In this document: in pieces, positions 1,324 through 10,356 of the stretch
Layout: each line of letters starts with the position of its first letter
Numbering within the stretch: position 1 is the stretch's first letter
Origin: Clostridia bacterium
Lineage (GTDB): Bacteria > Bacillota > Clostridia > Christensenellales > Aristaeellaceae
NCBI GenBank assembly: GCA_030530315.1
Contig: JAUMVG010000024.1
Coordinates: 1 to 45,670 of the forward strand
Length of the DNA stretch: 45,670 nucleotides
Direction of reading: 5' to 3'
Made by a program: the position numbers and the translations under genes
Notes under the pieces: generated by a model
What the model saw: the letters and a program-made list of their open reading frames with translations, nothing else
Told to the model about the DNA's origin: nothing
Database searches by the model: none

Positions 1324-1389
1324 ATGGAAAAGAAGAAGATCTACAACGTCTCGTTCGAGATCGAATCCAGAGACGAGGCATCCGTGTAG
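1324..1389 (+). pseudogene. 3'-truncated gene start at a deletion or inversion junction
   Basis: GAGGAGGACAGC precedes ATG, and the product MEKKKIYNVSFEIESRDEA reads like the N-terminus of a longer phage protein with a beta strand followed by a helix start. It stops after 21 residues at TAG, just where the sequence meets the 3' end of the convergent NinB/HNHc-like gene. An 8-bp inverted repeat (1378-1385 with 1398-1405) marks the join. I read this as the surviving 5' end of a gene whose remainder was lost. Confidence 0.5.
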
Positions 1390-1688
1390 TCGCCCTTACG
1401 GATGCAAACCTGGATGTAGATGCCCACATCCCTGATGGCCCGCCGGTAGACCTCCTCCTTTGAGATCGGCGGGTTCATGGCCCTTCCGATCTGCGAGCAG
1501 ATCTCCCAGCACAGGGCGTTGGCCTTCGTGCTGCGCTTCTCGCGGTGGGGCTTGATCTCGATGTCCAGCACCTTGTCCTTCAGGCGGCTCACCTCGTCCA
1601 TGTGCTGGCCGTAGGTGCGCAGGGTGACGTCCGTCTCCACGCTGCCGGAGACCGGCTTCGCGCCGAGCAGTATGCCGGTCAGCTTCAC
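1341..1688 (-). pseudogene. NinB/HNHc-like phage recombination gene, 3'-truncated
   Basis: The GTG start at 1688 overlaps the stop of the upstream Gam-like gene (GTGA), so translation is coupled. Residues 1-50 form a beta-rich start, followed by KRSTKANALCWEICSQIGRAM and SKEEVYRRAIRDVG. This pattern is seen in NinB-type and HNHc-type phage DNA-metabolism proteins, which help process recombination intermediates. Such proteins are usually nearly twice this length. Here the recognisable sequence ends near residue 102 and the last dozen residues are antisense to the 1324 gene. It is therefore a truncated, probably inactive copy. Confidence 0.6.
1378..1405. repeat. Inverted repeat at the rearrangement junction
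   Basis: GCATCCGT (1378-1385) and ACGGATGC (1398-1405) are perfect reverse complements, 12 nt apart, exactly where two convergent genes are both cut short. Confidence 0.75.
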
Positions 1689-2257
1689 TTGGCCTTCACC
1701 TCAAACCTCGCCGGGGTCTCGGAGATCACCACGGTTCCCACGGGCAGCACCTCGCCGGTCTCGTCGAACACGATGTCGCCGTTGTCCAGGGCGATCAGGC
1801 GCTTCTTCACCTCGGCCCACCGGGGCGAGACCTCGGTCTTCAGGTAGTCGTTCATGCCGCTGGCCGTCAGCCAGTCGCGCAGCCGGTCCGTGTCGGCCTT
1901 GAAGTCACGGTAGGCCTTCTTCATCACCAGGCTGCCGCTGGGCAGCTCGTACTTGTTCTGGGTCTTGGTCTCCTTCGTGGGCACGGTGCCGAAGTACAGC
2001 AGCAGCATGGCCTTGAGGTTCCGGGTGCGGCCATCCAGGCGGTTGCGGTATTCCTCCTGCCGCGCCTTGTAGCGGTCGATCTGATCCTGGCAGCAGGCCA
2101 CCAGTCGAGCGCATTCGGCTTCCTCGGCGGCGATCTTGCGCACCGCCCACTCGGCCTTGGCGTCGCTGTCGATCAGCATGCCGGTGGGCATGTCGGCGTC
2201 GCTGTTCAGGCCGAACTCACCGGCGAAGTCCTGCAGGACCTCCTGAAAATCATCCAT
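1685..2257 (-). CDS. gam: Host-nuclease inhibitor Gam family protein
   Basis: The 190-aa protein fits the phage Mu Gam/host-nuclease inhibitor family, which binds double-stranded DNA ends and shields them from host exonucleases during phage recombination. Residues about 25-85 are a long coiled coil (AEEAECARLVACCQDQIDRY and onward). Then come a beta segment (KYELPSGSLVMKK), RLRDWLTASGMNDYLKTE, and a C-terminal strand pair ending in FEVKAK, all in family order. The ATG at 2257 is preceded by GAAAGGAA; the open frame extends upstream without a site. It lies in the minus-strand early operon and is coupled to the truncated NinB-like gene downstream. Confidence 0.75.
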   Translation of the reverse strand: MDDFQEVLQDFAGEFGLNSDADMPTGMLIDSDAKAEWAVRKIAAEEAECARLVACCQDQIDRYKARQEEYRNRLDGRTRNLKAMLLLYFGTVPTKETKTQNKYELPSGSLVMKKAYRDFKADTDRLRDWLTASGMNDYLKTEVSPRWAEVKKRLIALDNGDIVFDETGEVLPVGTVVISETPARFEVKAK

Positions 2258-2271
2258 AAGCAGTTCCTTTC

Positions 2272-2487
2272 TCATTCCACAAAGGAATGGTGGCAGATGG
2301 GGCAGCCGGTGATCAGCTTCTTGCCCGCCTCCTCGACGGTGATCACGTCGGCAAAAATGTTGTTGCCGCAGGCGTTGCACCAGCCGTCCGCCGGGGCGAA
2401 CATGGGCACCTCGTGCGCCTCGCAGTAGTCCGCCTGGGCCTTCGCCGCCTGTGCGGGGTTCCAGGTCTTAACAGGGGTAGGGGTCAT
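2272..2487 (-). CDS. Small zinc-ribbon protein, 71 aa
   Basis: GGAGGTG precedes the ATG at 2487, which overlaps the stop of the upstream gene by 4 nt (ATGA). Cys37/Cys40 (WCNACG) and Cys62/Cys65 (GCPICHH) form a likely zinc ribbon. The N-terminal third is a short helix rich in Ala. No enzymatic motif is visible. Position in the early operon between an acidic Cys-rich protein and Gam suggests a nucleic-acid or protein-binding accessory role, but this is inference. Confidence 0.7.
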   Translation of the reverse strand: MTPTPVKTWNPAQAAKAQADYCEAHEVPMFAPADGWCNACGNNIFADVITVEEAGKKLITGCPICHHSFVE

Positions 2488-3829: not shown

Positions 3830-3858
3830 AGAAGCAAGCAGGAAATGGGGGATTGAAG

Positions 3859-4248
3859 ATGTCAGACTTTGCAACAACTTTGAAACAGATACGCCTTGGC
3901 AAAGGCATGTCGCAGGAAGAGTTTGCCGCTTTTCTTGGCACTTCAAAACAGAATATCAGCCGCTATGAAAGCGGTGAAGTCTCGCCCAAGATCTCAACTG
4001 CGGCGAAGATCGCGGACAAACTCGGAATCACGATCGCTCAGCTGAACGGAGATAACTCTCCGGCGGCCAGCGCATCCGACGACGATGCCTGGACCCTCCG
4101 CGAGAACGAGCGCGACGACCCGGACCGCAAGGCGCTGTTCATGCTGTCCAAGTACGGCAGCGCGAAGGACATCCGCCAGGCCGCCGCCCTGATCGACGCC
4201 CTCCGCGCCACGAACCCTGATTTCTATGATGGAGATGACCCGGCGTAA
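3859..4248 (+). CDS. CI-type XRE family repressor
   Basis: The 129-aa protein starts with an N-terminal XRE domain (residues about 4-60): IRLGKGMSQEEFAAFLGTSK, then QNISRYESGEVSPKISTAAK. A flexible acidic linker and a short helical C-terminus (SAKDIRQAAALIDALRAT) follow, with no autoprotease (LexA-type) domain. The ATG at 3859 follows GGGGGATTGAAG; the frame can also open at TTG 3853. Repressors of this kind lacking a peptidase are usually inactivated by an ImmA/IrrE-type partner. Such a gene exists at 5794-6351 but is now separated from the repressor by the TAC cassette. Confidence 0.85.
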   Translation: MSDFATTLKQIRLGKGMSQEEFAAFLGTSKQNISRYESGEVSPKISTAAKIADKLGITIAQLNGDNSPAASASDDDAWTLRENERDDPDRKALFMLSKYGSAKDIRQAAALIDALRATNPDFYDGDDPA

Positions 4249-4279
4249 GGGCTACAAAATGTAAATTTCAATCATATGG

Positions 4280-4307
4280 TTGAAAAATCACGAAATACAT
4301 GTATAAT
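4280..4307 (+). promoter_or_regulatory. Promoter of the TAC operon
   Basis: TTGAAA (4280-4285), 16-nt spacer, TATAAT (4302-4307), about 20 nt before the TTG start. The region is AT-rich compared with the flanking phage genes. Confidence 0.65.
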
Positions 4308-4327
4308 ATAGATGGAGGGTCACCTGC

Positions 4328-4753
4328 TTGACAGCTGCGGAATACAATAGAAAGGATTCTCGAGAAGATGTGATACGCATAGTAGAATATGTCAGAGATC
4401 ACGTCTTCGATCTGGACGCTGTGGATATTACTCGGTTTCTCCGTAGGCGTAATCGCACGCAGGACGAAGAATGGAGCAAATCTGCACAGTTTGTCATGCA
4501 GTATGATATTCACAACGAAGACGTGCGCAACTGTATGGCGGAATTGACCGTTGAACAGTATTCAACCACTTCGGTCAAAGATGGATGTCCAGACGCCTAC
4601 GTGTTTGGAGTCCATATGCCAGAGATAATAGAGAGTAATCCGGAAATCTATCTGAAGTTTCAGATTAATGATGGTTTCTTTATCGTCACCATTCACGAAT
4701 CAGACTGGCAGATGGATTATCCATATAGTCTGAACAGGGGGGAACAACAATGA
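4328..4753 (+). CDS. mqsR: MqsR-like toxin of a toxin-antitoxin-chaperone module
   Basis: The 141-aa protein aligns by pattern with Gram-positive MqsR-family toxins, which are RelE-fold mRNA interferases. It has an N-terminal helix-rich extension, the DVRNCMAELTVEQY helix, then a strand series AYVFGV, EIYLKFQI, FFIVTIHES and a terminal DYPYSL. Start is TTG at 4328 with GGAGG nine nt upstream; no in-frame ATG occurs before codon 58. Its stop overlaps the antitoxin start (ATGA). The toxin-first order with a zinc-finger antitoxin and a SecB-like gene next is that of known TAC systems. Catalytic residues are not certain from sequence alone. Confidence 0.78.
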   Translation: MTAAEYNRKDSREDVIRIVEYVRDHVFDLDAVDITRFLRRRNRTQDEEWSKSAQFVMQYDIHNEDVRNCMAELTVEQYSTTSVKDGCPDAYVFGVHMPEIIESNPEIYLKFQINDGFFIVTIHESDWQMDYPYSLNRGEQQ

Positions 4754-5397
4754 GGGCTTGGTGTGATAAATGTGGCAGATATGTCGAATATACGCAGGAA
4801 ATAGAAGTTACCGAAGAGCTTGAGATCAAGGGGACCAAGTTTAATGCTTTGCAGACATATGGCATATGCCCTGTGTGTGGTGATGAAGTCCTCTCAAATG
4901 ACCAGGCGGATAAGAACGTTCATAGGGCACACAATGCTTACCGCAGAGCTCTCGGCTCCATAACAGCGGAGGAAATCCAGGATATTCTGACCATGTACAA
5001 TATCGGTGCCCAGCCTCTGAGCAATTTGTTGGGCTGGGGCGCCAATACCATCGAGCGGCAGATGAAGCACACTGTTCCCAGTAAGGAACATGCCAGACGC
5101 CTCCGTGAATTGAAGAATCCGTCTGCCATGTATGAGTTGCTTGAGAGCAATAAGAATCGGATCACGGAACTTGCCTATAAGAAGGCACTGAAGGCAGTAT
5201 TCGAACATCATGAATTTGATATTCACAGGCAGGCTTATTCCGATGTTGTTTGGAGCACGTCTGTGAGTGGGATCCTGGGAATCTTTTTTAAGGATGCACC
5301 CGTGTGCATTATAAAAGGGAAAAGACGGAAGGAATACTCGCAAGAATACACGCCGCAGCATGAACTGTATCAACTTGCTTTTTCGGGAGGTAAATAA
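4750..5397 (+). CDS. mqsA: MqsA-like antitoxin with C-terminal chaperone-addiction-type extension
   Basis: In this 215-aa protein, Cys5/Cys8 and Cys40/Cys43 (CPVCG) make the MqsA/YgiT-type zinc finger that binds toxin. Residues about 70-125 form a helix-turn-helix (SITAEEIQDIL, LSNLLGWGANTIERQ) for operator binding. A C-terminal part of roughly 90 residues goes beyond classical MqsA (about 130 aa). It is moderately hydrophobic (DVVWSTSVSGILGIFF) and ends in a charged tail. In TAC systems such an extension (ChAD) makes the antitoxin unstable unless a SecB-like chaperone binds it. The next gene is SecB-like, so that reading fits well. Confidence 0.78.
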   Translation: MRAWCDKCGRYVEYTQEIEVTEELEIKGTKFNALQTYGICPVCGDEVLSNDQADKNVHRAHNAYRRALGSITAEEIQDILTMYNIGAQPLSNLLGWGANTIERQMKHTVPSKEHARRLRELKNPSAMYELLESNKNRITELAYKKALKAVFEHHEFDIHRQAYSDVVWSTSVSGILGIFFKDAPVCIIKGKRRKEYSQEYTPQHELYQLAFSGGK

Positions 5398-5399
5398 CC

Positions 5400-5837
5400 A
5401 TGTCAGATCTTGTGATGCTTGGGTTTACAGTTGTTCACTTTGAAACCGAGCTTCAGCCGGAAGTGGTTCAGTTCGATGGTAAGAGCGATAAAGGCATGGC
5501 TATCAATTGCGATGCTTATATTCCTGGTGATGGAAAACACAGTGTACTGAGGATACAGATCAGTATATGTGGGTATCTTCCCGGAGAAAAACCCCTAAAT
5601 GAGCGAAAGCCGTTTGTTAAGGTGGACGGTGAGTTCCTTTTCAACTTCGAATCAGTTGTTGAACTGGAGAATTCAGAAATGGAGGCAACTGTAAAAACCG
5701 TAGGTCTGCAAACTGCTATTCCGGTTTTGCGCGGCTTGCTTGTTGGGGTTTGCAATATGTTGAATCTTCCCCCTGTATTCTCCTTCCCTCCTGTTGGGCC
5801 GGAAGACATTGATTGGGATTCGGAAGAAGACGAATAA
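5400..5837 (+). CDS. SecB-like chaperone of the TAC module
   Basis: The 145-aa protein is close in length to SecB (about 155). It shows a strand-rich core (VLRIQISICGYL, FLFNFESVVEL), then a helix VGLQTAIPVLRGLLVGVCNM and a LPPVFSFPP segment. These correspond to the SecB C-terminal region in which a Phe-Pro-rich loop follows the last long helix. The tail is very acidic (DIDWDSEEDE). The start is 2 nt after the antitoxin stop with GGGAGG upstream. The host group rarely has a housekeeping SecB, so a dedicated TAC chaperone is the best reading. It would fold and protect the antitoxin. Confidence 0.75.
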   Translation: MSDLVMLGFTVVHFETELQPEVVQFDGKSDKGMAINCDAYIPGDGKHSVLRIQISICGYLPGEKPLNERKPFVKVDGEFLFNFESVVELENSEMEATVKTVGLQTAIPVLRGLLVGVCNMLNLPPVFSFPPVGPEDIDWDSEEDE

Positions 5838-6547: not shown

Positions 6548-6688
6548 ATGAAAGTAAAACCCTCCTTGAAGAAGATTCGGATTCCCAAGAAAGGCATACA
6601 GATTCGGGATGGAAAGACCGTGGACCCAGACAATCCCAAGAAGCCTACGCCCCAGAGCCCGAAGAAAGGTTCTCAAGGGGGTAAATAG
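6548..6688 (+). CDS. Small basic Pro/Lys-rich protein, 46 aa
   Basis: GAGGTGATGGAGTAG precedes the ATG. The product has 14 lysines, repeated basic blocks (KKIRIPKKG, NPKKP, SPKKGS) and several prolines, consistent with a disordered nucleic-acid-binding peptide. Its 3' end overlaps the convergent membrane-protein gene by about 44 nt. Function unknown. Confidence 0.55.
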   Translation: MKVKPSLKKIRIPKKGIQIRDGKTVDPDNPKKPTPQSPKKGSQGGK

Positions 6689-7361
6689 GATCATCCGGCA
6701 CGACTTCCTCCGTCTTCATCGCCTCTGTCAGGTTTTCGGCAGCGACGAACTCGATCTCTGTATCGGTGCCCAGGTTGTACGCGCTGAGGAAGCGATTCCC
6801 CAGCAGGCCCCAATCGGGCTTGGCGAGCTCCCGTTCCACCCGGTTGCAGTAGGAGAGCACGATCACGGGGTCGTCGCTCAGATCATCGGGCAGCACCTGC
6901 GGAAAGCCCGCGCGGACGATCTTCCCGCCCTTGCGGATGATCGCGGCGCACTCGCCGACGGAGTATTCGTTGATCAGCTCCACCCAGGCCTTGCGCCTCA
7001 CAGTGTGCGGCGGTATGTGCTTGTGCCTGCGATATTTGTTCACGGCCAGCAGCATAAGGCGCGCGCACACGATCCAGAGGACGCCCGCCACGATGCTCAG
7101 TATGAACGACCACTTCAGGTAGTTCCACAGCATGCCGGTGTGTTTCAGCTCGCCGATCAAGCCGGAGAGCCCCCCTCTCATGTTGGTGAGCATGCCGCAG
7201 GTAATCACCGTCACCGCGGCGCTGATGAAGAAGCACAGTGCGGCACGGGTGAAGGAATCCGGCTCCTGATAGGTGGTCATGCCCTTGGCGATGCGCGAGT
7301 AAATCAGGTAGGCAATCGCGCCGGGATAGGTGAACAGCATCAGCAGTATGATATTCTCCAT
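6645..7361 (-). CDS. Membrane protein with cytoplasmic C-terminal domain, 238 aa
   Basis: GGAGGTGATTCC precedes the ATG at 7361. Three likely membrane segments occur at residues about 3-22, 42-60 and 80-105. A soluble region of about 130 residues follows (VRRKAWVELINEY, RVERELAKPDWGLL, IEFVAAENL). The layout resembles DUF6338-like membrane proteins found on mobile elements, but the match is by pattern only. It is divergent from another membrane protein at 7477 across a 115-nt double promoter, suggesting a paired accessory function. Confidence 0.6.
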   Translation of the reverse strand: MENIILLMLFTYPGAIAYLIYSRIAKGMTTYQEPDSFTRAALCFFISAAVTVITCGMLTNMRGGLSGLIGELKHTGMLWNYLKWSFILSIVAGVLWIVCARLMLLAVNKYRRHKHIPPHTVRRKAWVELINEYSVGECAAIIRKGGKIVRAGFPQVLPDDLSDDPVIVLSYCNRVERELAKPDWGLLGNRFLSAYNLGTDTEIEFVAAENLTEAMKTEEVVPDDPIYPLENLSSGSGA

Positions 7362-7381
7362 GGAATCACCTCCATGACTGA

Positions 7382-7410
7382 ATTGTACCACAGGGGAATC
7401 GAAATCGCAA
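7382..7410 (-). promoter_or_regulatory. Promoter of the 6645-7361 gene
   Basis: Minus strand TTGCGA (7405-7410), 17-nt spacer, TACAAT (7382-7387). Confidence 0.6.
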
Positions 7411-7423
7411 TTGATGAGTTTCG

Positions 7424-7453
7424 TTGACTTCGCGCAGGCGGCGCGGGTATAAT
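7424..7453 (+). promoter_or_regulatory. Promoter of the 7477 gene
   Basis: TTGACT (7424-7429), 18-nt spacer, TATAAT (7448-7453), giving a very short leader before the start at 7477. Confidence 0.65.
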
Positions 7454-7476
7454 GTCGCCGAAGGGGGTGACAAACC

Positions 7477-7998
7477 ATGCGAGATAAATACTTCAATCTG
7501 GTGCAGGATGTGGACTATGCCTGCATCTACTACCAGAAGTATTACAGTATGGCTGTGACCATTGAGCGAATCGTCAGCGCACTGTGCGCCTGTGTGTCTA
7601 CTGTGGGTATTGCCGGTTGGGCGATCTGGAAGGAACATCCGCTGATCTGGTCAGTGCTGATCGCCATCTCGCAGACCGTTGCAGTGATATTTCCCTATAC
7701 GCCGTACAAGAAAAGGCGCTTGGCACTGGATTACATGATTCCCAGGCTTCAGGCAGTGAAGCTGCGCGTCTTCATGACGTGGCAAAGGCATTGCGACGAC
7801 ATCGATTATGACTTCACAGAAGACTTTCTGCATGACTTTCAGGATTTCCATAGAACGGACACAGAATTCCTCGGCGCGGAGGAAATTCCTACGCACAAAA
7901 AGATGGGTGAAAAAGCCCGAGCCCTCGTAGATCTGGATCTGTCCGGGCAATTCAAAGTGAAGGAAGAGGATCTAATTGGCAGCCGACTCAAGAACTGA
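7477..7998 (+). CDS. Two-helix membrane protein, SLATT-like architecture, 173 aa
   Basis: GGGGGTGACAAACC precedes the ATG. The order is an amphipathic N-terminal helix with many Tyr residues, two membrane helices close together (residues about 28-47 and 56-74), then about 100 cytoplasmic residues with an acidic helix (DIDYDFTEDFLHDFQDF). The order helix, TM hairpin, cytoplasmic helical tail is that of SLATT-type effectors associated with nucleotide-signalling defence, but no signature residue proves it. It is divergent from the 238-aa membrane protein. The pair could be a small defence or exclusion module. Confidence 0.55.
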   Translation: MRDKYFNLVQDVDYACIYYQKYYSMAVTIERIVSALCACVSTVGIAGWAIWKEHPLIWSVLIAISQTVAVIFPYTPYKKRRLALDYMIPRLQAVKLRVFMTWQRHCDDIDYDFTEDFLHDFQDFHRTDTEFLGAEEIPTHKKMGEKARALVDLDLSGQFKVKEEDLIGSRLKN

Positions 7999-8329: not shown

Positions 8330-10042
8330 ATGGCAAAAAAGAAGCAGGCGCCGGCGGAGACGGTGGCGGCGGTCTATGCCCGCTATTCGTCCCACGCCCA
8401 GAACGACGCCAGCATTGAACAGCAGGTCGCGGAGTGCCGGGAGTACGCCGCCGCCCACGATCTGAAGATCTGCGAGATCTACGCGGACCGCGCCCTCTCA
8501 GGTCGGTCAGATCGCCGCCCGGAGTTCCAGAAGATGATCCGCCACGCCGAGGCGGGGAAGTTCCAGGTCGTGCTCACCTACAAATCCAACCGCATCGCCC
8601 GGAACATGTTGGACGCCCTGCGCTATGAGGACCGGCTGGAGAAGGCCGGCGTGAAGGTCGTCTACTGCAAGGAGAACTTTGGCGACAATGCCGCCGGGCG
8701 GATGGCCGTGCGCATGATGATGTCCCTCAATGAATTCTATTCCGAGAACATGGCCGAGGACATCAAGAGGGGCATGAACGACAGCGCCCAGCAGTGCAAG
8801 ATCGTTGGCAGCATCCCCTTCGGCTACAGGCGCGGCGAGGATGGCCGCTTCGCCATCGATGAAGCCAATGCCGAGGTCGTCAGGGAGATCTTCCGCCGAT
8901 ACGCCGAGGGCGATACCCAGGCGGCCATTGCCGACGATCTGAACGCCCGCCGTATCCTCACGCAGCAGAAGCGCCCCTGGGGGAAGAATTCGTTCCACAC
9001 CATACTCACCAACGAACGCTACATAGGCGTCTACATATTCGCCGACATCCGCGTGGAAAACGGCATGCCTGCGATCATCGACCGGGATTTATTCTATCGC
9101 GTACAGGAAAAAGTGGGGAGGCGAAGAGAAGTGGCCGGACGCAGAAGGGAGAGCATCGAATATCTGCTGACAGGGAAGCTGTTCTGCGCGAAGTGCGGTG
9201 CGCCGATGGTCGGTGTGTCCGGCACCGGCAAGGGCGGCAGCCTTTACTATTACTACGTCTGCAAGAACCGCCAGGATCATCACACCTGCAAGAAGCGGAA
9301 CGTGCGGAAGGCCGCAGCCGAACGGGAGATCGCCGCCCGCCTGAAAAGCATCGTCCTGAAGCCCGACGTCGTGGAGTGGATGATCGACAACGTCATGCGC
9401 TATCAGGACGAAGCCCGCAAGCAGTCCGATCTGGCCTCCTATCAGGATCGGCTCGTGGAGGTCCGGCGCTCCCTGGACAACCTGGTCAAGGCCATCGAGG
9501 CCGGTGTGTTCTCCCAGACCACAAAGGCCCGCCTGGATGATCTGGAAACCGAACAGCGCGAACTGCAAGCCATGATCGCCATGGAGCGCTCAAAGATCAA
9601 TACCGTCACCCGCGACCAGATCGCCTACTATCTCGAATCCTTCCGCGACGGCGATGTCGACGATCCAGCCTATCAGAAGCGTCTCTTCAAGGCCTTCCTG
9701 GTCAAGGCCTTCCTCGACGACGACAAGTTCCGAATTGTCTATAATTACGCCGACGGCCTCGACACGCTGGAATTCCCGCTGACGCTGGAGGACATCGAAT
9801 CCTCTGACATATCCCCTGAGTGTTCGTATAATAGCTCCTTGGGTGTACCAAAAGCCAGCCGTAAGGCTGGCTTCATTGTTTATCAGGGGCTCGAAGGGCG
9901 GAGAGTGAATGGAAGTCCAGTGGACTTCCAGAGCCCGCCCCGACCGAGCCCGCAGGCGAGAATCGAGCCCCTGATGGTGTACCAAAAGCCAGCCGTAAGG
10001 CTGGCTTCATTGTTTATCAGGGGCTCGAAGGGCGGAGAGTGA
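8330..10042 (+). CDS. Large serine recombinase (integrase/excisionase)
   Basis: The 570-aa enzyme catalyses site-specific integration and excision. The N-terminal resolvase domain holds VYARYSS with the catalytic serine near residue 20, SIEQQVAECREYA, and the YKSNRIARN active-site arginine region. The recombinase domain is at about residues 150-250 (GSIPFGYRR). The zinc ribbon (CAKCGAPM and the later Cys pair near VCKN and TCKKRN) is at 285-330, and a coiled coil follows at about 370-430. The element-encoded part ends at Pro507. The last 63 residues come from chromosomal repeat DNA beyond attR, so the C-terminus differs between integrated and excised forms. Weak TTTTGCT upstream; the ATG at 8330 follows AAGAGG. 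Confidence 0.93.
   Translation: MAKKKQAPAETVAAVYARYSSHAQNDASIEQQVAECREYAAAHDLKICEIYADRALSGRSDRRPEFQKMIRHAEAGKFQVVLTYKSNRIARNMLDALRYEDRLEKAGVKVVYCKENFGDNAAGRMAVRMMMSLNEFYSENMAEDIKRGMNDSAQQCKIVGSIPFGYRRGEDGRFAIDEANAEVVREIFRRYAEGDTQAAIADDLNARRILTQQKRPWGKNSFHTILTNERYIGVYIFADIRVENGMPAIIDRDLFYRVQEKVGRRREVAGRRRESIEYLLTGKLFCAKCGAPMVGVSGTGKGGSLYYYYVCKNRQDHHTCKKRNVRKAAAEREIAARLKSIVLKPDVVEWMIDNVMRYQDEARKQSDLASYQDRLVEVRRSLDNLVKAIEAGVFSQTTKARLDDLETEQRELQAMIAMERSKINTVTRDQIAYYLESFRDGDVDDPAYQKRLFKAFLVKAFLDDDKFRIVYNYADGLDTLEFPLTLEDIESSDISPECSYNSSLGVPKASRKAGFIVYQGLEGRRVNGSPVDFQSPPRPSPQARIEPLMVYQKPAVRLASLFIRGSKGGE
9818..9850 (+). other. attR (right attachment site)
   Basis: The arm GAGTGTTCG (9818-9826) is the reverse complement of the attL arm. 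A 15-nt spacer follows, then GGTGTACCA at 9842-9850. Upstream of the core the sequence is element DNA; downstream it is the tRNA terminator (AAGCCAGCC/GGCTGGCTT). It lies inside the recombinase reading frame. Confidence 0.75.
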
Positions 10043-10275
10043 ATGGAAGTCCAGTGGACTTCCAGAGCCCGCCCCGACCGAGCCCGCAGGCGAGAATCGA
10101 GCCCCTGATGGTGTACCAAAAGCCAGCCGTTAGGCTGGCTTCATTGTTTATCAGGGGCTCGAAGGGCGGGGAGTGAATGGAAGTCCAGTGGACTTCCAGA
10201 GCCCGCCCCGACCGAGCCCGCAGGCGAGAATCGAGCCCCTGATGGTGTACCAAAAGCCAGTCGTAAGGCTGGCTT
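9842..10275 (+). repeat. 134-bp tandem repeat array carrying tRNA-Lys 3' ends
   Basis: GGTGTACCA occurs at 9842, 9976, 10110 and 10244, exactly 134 nt apart. Copies 2-4 are preceded by the same 22 nt as the tRNA 3' end (9963-9984, 10097-10118, 10231-10252). Each is followed by a terminator hairpin AAGCCAGCC/GGCTGGCTT. Each full unit holds ATCAGGGGCTCGA, complementary to TCGAGCCCCTGAT at its end, and the near-palindrome GGAAGTCCAGTGGACTTCC (first copy 9911-9929). Units differ by only a few bases, so they are recent duplications or kept homogeneous. Confidence 0.93.
9850..9875 (+). terminator. Displaced terminator of tRNA-Lys
   Basis: AAGCCAGCC, GTAA loop, GGCTGGCTT, then CATTGTTT. In the uninterrupted chromosome it would follow the tRNA CCA directly. 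Similar copies follow each later repeat unit, with compensating or loop changes at about 10130 and 10261. Confidence 0.7.
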
Positions 10276-10356
10276 CTTTGTTATTCGTGATAGGTAACCT
10301 GAAAGTCAATGCAACTTTTCTGCAACCCGTCTATAGTGACGCTTTATAGTGTTTGC

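Follow-up and report, generated by a model that had tools for sequence, protein, structure and literature searches.

A probable MqsR/MqsA/SecB-type operon among the lysogeny genes of a prophage-like element from a Clostridia bacterium

Do three adjoining genes of a Clostridia bacterium form a toxin-antitoxin-chaperone (TAC) module, and what kind of module did they arise from? The genes lie at positions 4328-5837 of the window, by which we mean the whole 45,670-nucleotide stretch of contig JAUMVG010000024.1 analyzed here, and a preliminary description had read them as a TAC of the MqsR/MqsA/SecB kind on a mobile element. We hold it highly probable that they are such a tripartite operon, placed in a prophage-like lysogeny region and working by the mechanism proposed below. 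As judged from sequence comparison and structure models, an MqsR-fold toxin, a zinc-finger/helix-turn-helix (HTH) antitoxin whose tail is unique, together with a SecB-like protein, stand in operon layout and are conserved as one cassette. The module is a TAC by anatomy, and analogy with known systems suggests that its antitoxin probably depends on the helper protein.

The three genes and their layout

The following features make up the module and its upstream signals.

4266..4285, no strand assigned: 20-bp inverted repeat TTTCAATCAT/ATGGTTGAAA with 9/10 pairs, overlapping the -35 box; candidate autoregulatory operator
4280..4307, + strand: sigma-70-like promoter TTGAAA-16-TATAAT, 11/12 consensus bases, assigned by consensus match alone
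4328..4753, + strand: MqsR-like toxin, 141 aa; TTG start behind GGAGGG (4314-4319); conserved Tyr108 (4649-4651), Lys110 and His123
4750..5397, + strand: MqsA-like antitoxin, 215 aa, with zinc-binding domain (ZBD) and HTH and without Panacea, assigned by TIGR03830 and tree
5200..5394, + strand: unique tail (antitoxin residues 151-215), putative chaperone-addiction (ChAD) region
5400..5837, + strand: SecB-like chaperone candidate, 145 aa, with ribosome site GGGAGG (5385-5390), assigned by profile and fold

The toxin and antitoxin open reading frames (ORFs) overlap by 4 nt (ATGA, 4750-4753), and a gap of 2 nt (5398-5399) separates the antitoxin from the chaperone. The tight coupling claimed beforehand was thus confirmed by the ORF coordinates. 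The module was further compared with that of a relative, L002, which lies on a 22-kb contig with matches to a tape-measure protein (5.4e-91) and a major tail protein (1e-46). In this comparison, the proteins of the module are 66-68% identical as aligned, and the Nei-Gojobori ratios of nonsynonymous to synonymous rates (dN/dS), which are rough because dS is near saturation, are about 0.13, 0.13 and 0.09 for toxin, antitoxin and chaperone, respectively. Low ratios in all three ORFs indicate coding conservation rather than chance ORFs. Upstream of the L002 toxin, a corresponding promoter-like site (TTGAAA-17-GATAAT) is present, and 18/20 bases of the inverted repeat are kept, yet just 7/10 pairs hold. 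The 20-mer is unique in the window when up to three mismatches are allowed, and it is a candidate for the autoregulatory operator.

The toxin has an MqsR/RelE-type fold, and its Tyr108, invariant in 19 sequences, shares an alignment column with the E. coli tyrosine, which we take to be the catalytic Tyr81 of MqsR; Tyr108 is therefore a candidate for the conserved MqsR-type catalytic residue. Pfam MqsR_toxin (PF15723) had no match in the window toxin at E<=1, and among four toxin relatives scanned it matched L004 and L019 below the cut-off and L006 and L012 not at all.

TIGR03830 (MqsA) covers antitoxin residues 5-128 (E 7.7e-16; score 58.0 bits, cut-off 61.8), and PF15731 scores 17.8 bits against a cut-off of 30. 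No Pfam family was found in the antitoxin at E<=0.001, and in particular no Panacea domain (PF13274). Two CxxC pairs are present, and C5, C8 and C40 are invariant among 41 aligned antitoxins. The MqsR-like and zinc-finger/HTH assignments of the preliminary description thus hold. Its statement that the antitoxin is about 90 residues longer than classical MqsA holds in that a C-terminal extension beyond the classical core is real; the length difference is 84 residues (215 aa against 131 aa in E. coli MqsA), and since residues 1 to about 150 are common to Panacea-type MqsA antitoxins, the unique tail comprises about 65 residues. The proportion of nonsynonymous differences (pN) from L002 is 0.13 for residues 1-152, rises to 0.54 for 153-192 and falls to 0.25 for 193-215 (5326-5394), and we infer a loose linker followed by a kept end motif, as would be expected of a chaperone-binding end. 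An LAA end, a ClpXP signal reported for TACs as a non-defining trait, is absent: the window antitoxin ends in AFSGGK and that of L002 in AISGR.

For the third protein, alignment by hhalign to nine SecB-like proteins of the same class gave E 2.9e-5 against 100 column shuffles. SecB is among the fold matches of a structure model whose mean predicted local distance difference test (pLDDT) score is 50.5, and the best of these include 5mtw, the chaperone of HigBA1-SecB^TA; a fold unrelated to SecB, which would have spoken against the SecB-like assignment, was not obtained from this model. PD-T4-9_C of PADLOC matches weakly (E 0.011), and no Pfam family, hence not PF02556 (SecB), matches the protein. 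Other structural matches, coat proteins and Chk1 KA1 among them, were weak and were disregarded. A toxin-antitoxin pair and a SecB-like gene, the latter recognized by profile and a low-confidence fold model, are therefore found in one operon.

Relatives and the origin of the module

Antitoxin relatives were found in 39/391 genomes of the class and 14/300 of the family (source genome included in both). Among 43 loci, L018, L021, L067 and L072 have no complete antitoxin ORF and did not enter the Pfam count, in which Panacea was found in 36/41 antitoxins at E<=0.001 (window and L002 included). The five without it are, as judged from length, those of the window, L002, L025, L063 and L073, and the last (79 aa) was dropped before trees were built from 40 antitoxin cores.

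In the maximum-likelihood tree, the window and L002 stand in one half amid Panacea-bearing rows; a long branch, L005, lies beside them with support of 70/68, and the immediate sister of the window is therefore uncertain. L025, from another family, has an 84-aa MqsR-like ORF, a 234-aa antitoxin with a different tail, and SecB downstream, and is nested with the Panacea-type L027 and L029 (support 98/96). Its identity to L029, the antitoxin of which is 339 aa and of the Panacea kind, is 60% over 156 ZBD-HTH core columns. A single clade of window, L002 and L025 was rejected by the approximately unbiased (AU) test, which was made after the tree had been seen and on a group defined by trait (p-AU 0.00027; 6.7e-5 when five proteobacterial MqsA serve as outgroup). 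Rooted in this way, the tree makes presence of Panacea appear ancestral in the sampled set. A further locus, L128, appears as a decayed L025-type TAC, in which a transposase-like gene (identified by eye) separates an antitoxin fragment from a SecB gene; the SecB proteins of L128 and L025 are 60% identical.

The window antitoxin core therefore groups with Panacea-type MqsA antitoxins, a point that the preliminary description had missed. Since the tail and SecB stand where relatives have Panacea, we read them as an exchanged sensor module, and the tree suggests that, on an MqsR/MqsA chassis, one sensor module has given way to another more than once. It is quite possible, and we propose it tentatively, that Panacea and tail with SecB are interchangeable alarm modules, swapped at least twice (in window/L002, and in L025 with the decayed L128), that Panacea senses phage or stress in the role that SecB titration has in TACs, and that phages carry the swapped version against rivals. 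Two points limit this interpretation. The antitoxin sample was drawn by the window antitoxin as query and may favor Panacea types; and L063, with a 160-aa, perhaps truncated antitoxin, lacks both Panacea and a SecB in its locus, so that missing Panacea alone does not mean TAC.

Relatives of the other two proteins were scarce. The chaperone as single query found 1/150 family genomes, the source itself, and nothing in plasmids, phages or viral contigs. A two-row chaperone profile (A1) recovered the L002 contig again, found nothing in the genome-contig collection, and in 398 phylum genomes gave nothing convincing beyond the source genome (best other E 0.0027, with stops). In the genome-contig collection, patterns matched with an antitoxin profile (A2), and tblastn confirmed none. 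The window toxin as single query found nothing in viral contigs or phages; with a toxin profile (A3), the L002 contig was the sole match. In 24 of the 43 loci, an ORF was matched by a profile of the toxins. More distant chaperone relatives were reached only from L025.

A first neighborhood screen with A1 found the chaperone in 0/43 loci, and was judged too insensitive because it missed the SecB of L025. A nine-sequence class SecB profile, which itself contains the L025 SecB and uses 9 of 13 places (L085, L086, L088 and L089 left out), found SecB neighbors in 2/43 loci, L025 and L032, within loci that extend only about 1.5 kb past the match; the SecB of L032 belongs to an adjacent HigB-type operon. 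As the chaperones of the window and of L002 give weak matches to this profile (E 0.02 and 0.003, respectively), diverged chaperones could be missed. A PF15731 scan of 196 class genomes matched 96, 13 over the cut-off; most of the matches listed are confined to the HTH part, and the scan was not used.

Other TAC-like arrangements were also noted. At L080 (1483-2915, - strand), genes for a GNAT-domain protein, an intervening protein and a SecB-like protein (PF02556, 25.3 bits, slightly below the cut-off) follow the TAC order, a possible acetyltransferase-type TAC. In L082, L083 and L090, the third of three genes is SecB-like and the first is ADP-ribosyltransferase-like by eye; the first gene of L082, the sole one scanned, had no Pfam match. 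On one contig of genome G442, a HigB/HTH/SecB set (L085; toxin and antitoxin named by eye) adjoins the MqsR-PanA pair of L032. On a Polaromonas plasmid, L126 (759-2162, + strand) has a 188-aa MqsA between two uncharacterized genes, which gave no informative Pfam match. Grouping of L126 with the window antitoxin was rejected (p-AU 6.6e-5), and it resembles a TAC by gene order only.

The mobile element and what the module may do

The element carrying the module was characterized by the following genes of the window.

1341..1688, - strand: NinB/Orf recombination-mediator-like phage gene (phrog_72, 1.1e-8)
1685..2380, - strand: Mu Gam-like end-protection protein, a phage early gene (phrog_2205, 3.9e-27)
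3853..4248, + strand: HTH regulator of Cro/CI type, lying upstream of the module and a candidate prophage repressor (HTH_3, 5.6e-17; phrog_8, 7.2e-18)
8330..10042, + strand: large serine integrase of the element (Resolvase, Recombinase and Zn_ribbon_recom; phrog_95, 5.6e-125)

NinB/Orf-like and Mu Gam-like genes, two HTH regulators and the integrase constitute a prophage-type early region in the left arm of the element, which bears out the mobile-element claim; no structural phage genes were seen in the window because the contig begins at its first base. In L002, the module lies downstream of a match to the window HTH regulator, with two ORFs between, and directly before a match to the integrase. 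Outside the module, four ORFs could be matched, two opposite-strand ORFs within it being set aside, and their identity is only 24-37%, which argues that the module moves as a cassette. Between module and integrase (6645-7998), two probable membrane proteins are encoded on opposite strands, and for the one at 7477-7998 the L002 phage has a relative at 25%. At 9842-10282, a 134-bp tandem repeat (3.3 copies, 98%) crosses the 3' end and stop of the integrase gene. The source genome has three matches to Spo0A_C, none to Omp85, and none to PF02556, a model that also misses the window chaperone. The natural reading of these genes is a monoderm Bacillota host, in support of the earlier Gram-positive claim.

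In the proposed mechanism, the toxin would cleave mRNA via the conserved tyrosine, the zinc-binding domain would neutralize it, and an HTH dimer would repress the operon at the inverted repeat, which overlaps the -35 box. The tail would keep the antitoxin unstable unless bound by a tetramer of the SecB-like protein. If the chaperone were drawn away, as by a phage capsid protein in CmdTAC (PMC11618068), the antitoxin would be lost and the toxin would stop growth, which would shield neighbors of the lysogen from competing phages.

Toxin-antitoxin modules on mobile elements often act in addiction and stabilization, and a TAC could have the job of keeping the prophage in the population rather than of stopping other phages. 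In the prophage-like element, an HTH regulator precedes the module and the integrase follows it, and L002 occurs in a phage contig; both points are in line with this. The two TACs tested against phage in the literature consulted here, CmdTAC and E. coli mqsRAC, nevertheless defend (PMC11618068, PMC9519451), so that we think addiction rather unlikely to be the main job; the two roles can coexist.

More improbable is a plain MqsR-MqsA pair, next to which the SecB-fold protein would be a separate phage protein, e.g., a folding helper for structural proteins, and in which the tail would only dimerize or bind DNA. Dependence of the antitoxin on the chaperone is argued by analogy, tail residues 153-192 are poorly conserved, the third protein is linked to SecB at profile level only, and L063 shows an antitoxin without Panacea and with no SecB nearby; these points speak for the plain pair. 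However, the three-gene cassette stays together while its phage surroundings diverge, and absence of Panacea coincides with a downstream SecB-like gene at two separate places of the tree. Wiring in which the toxin cannot fold or become active unless the antitoxin is present, and in which silence requires the complete trio, as reported for CmdTA in an author correction (PMC11445053, to PMC9519451), is very improbable here, the window toxin being MqsR-like rather than ADP-ribosyltransferase-like and E. coli MqsR toxicity being rescued by MqsA plus MqsC (PMC9519451).

Comparison with known systems

The MqsR/MqsA/SecB-type TAC favored here shares the kinds of toxin, antitoxin and chaperone, as well as a variable C-terminal antitoxin extension, with published MqsRAC and MqsRA-SecB (PMC9519451, PMC5105189), of which one is functional in V. 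cholerae RC385 (PMC5105189) and another, in E. coli C496_10, protects against phage T2, a protection that extra MqsC inhibited (PMC9519451). It differs from them in its setting, a prophage-like element whose host bears Spo0A. The window antitoxin stands apart in the tree from the five proteobacterial MqsA, none of which is a published TAC antitoxin. ChAD regions of different TACs have no significant similarity (PMC5105189), and the ChAD peptide of HigBA1-SecB^TA is treated in PMC6377645. That system (Rv1955-1957) has the TAC layout and the chaperone of the 5mtw fold match, whereas its toxin and antitoxin are HigBA. CmdTAC (PD-T4-9) likewise has a SecB-like third gene; its toxin is an ADP-ribosyltransferase, unlike that of the window, and CmdA consists of two helices and a long unstructured C-terminus with an LAA end (PMC11618068). 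MqsR-PanA of B. fungorum (MqsR_D2:PanA) has an MqsR-like toxin and a ZBD-HTH antitoxin core, as in the window, where a different tail and a SecB-like gene take the place of Panacea; its ZBD alone neutralizes, and Panacea has been proposed as sensor (PMC10440598).

As an MqsR-type TAC in a Gram-positive element, the module stands with respect to its three protein kinds, its prophage-like element and its Spo0A-bearing host. That the combination is little described was overstated: MqsR-type TACs (PMC5105189, PMC9519451) and SecB-like genes of Gram-positive bacteria, phages and plasmids (PMC4257090) are in print. Among the open-access papers searched, none united TAC systems, SecB and Clostridia; a single one, PMC10440598, joins TAC and Panacea, and it describes no swap in the part available to us. 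What looks new is an apparent origin by repeated exchange of Panacea for tail with SecB, rather than the Gram-positive home.

The present locus widens the range of MqsR-type TACs by a prophage-like element in a Spo0A-bearing host of monoderm type, and its chaperone suggests that the SecB Pfam model does not detect all chaperones of such TACs. Comparison of pairs such as L025 and L029 would test whether C-terminal modules choose the trigger of the system, while toxin and lock stay unchanged.
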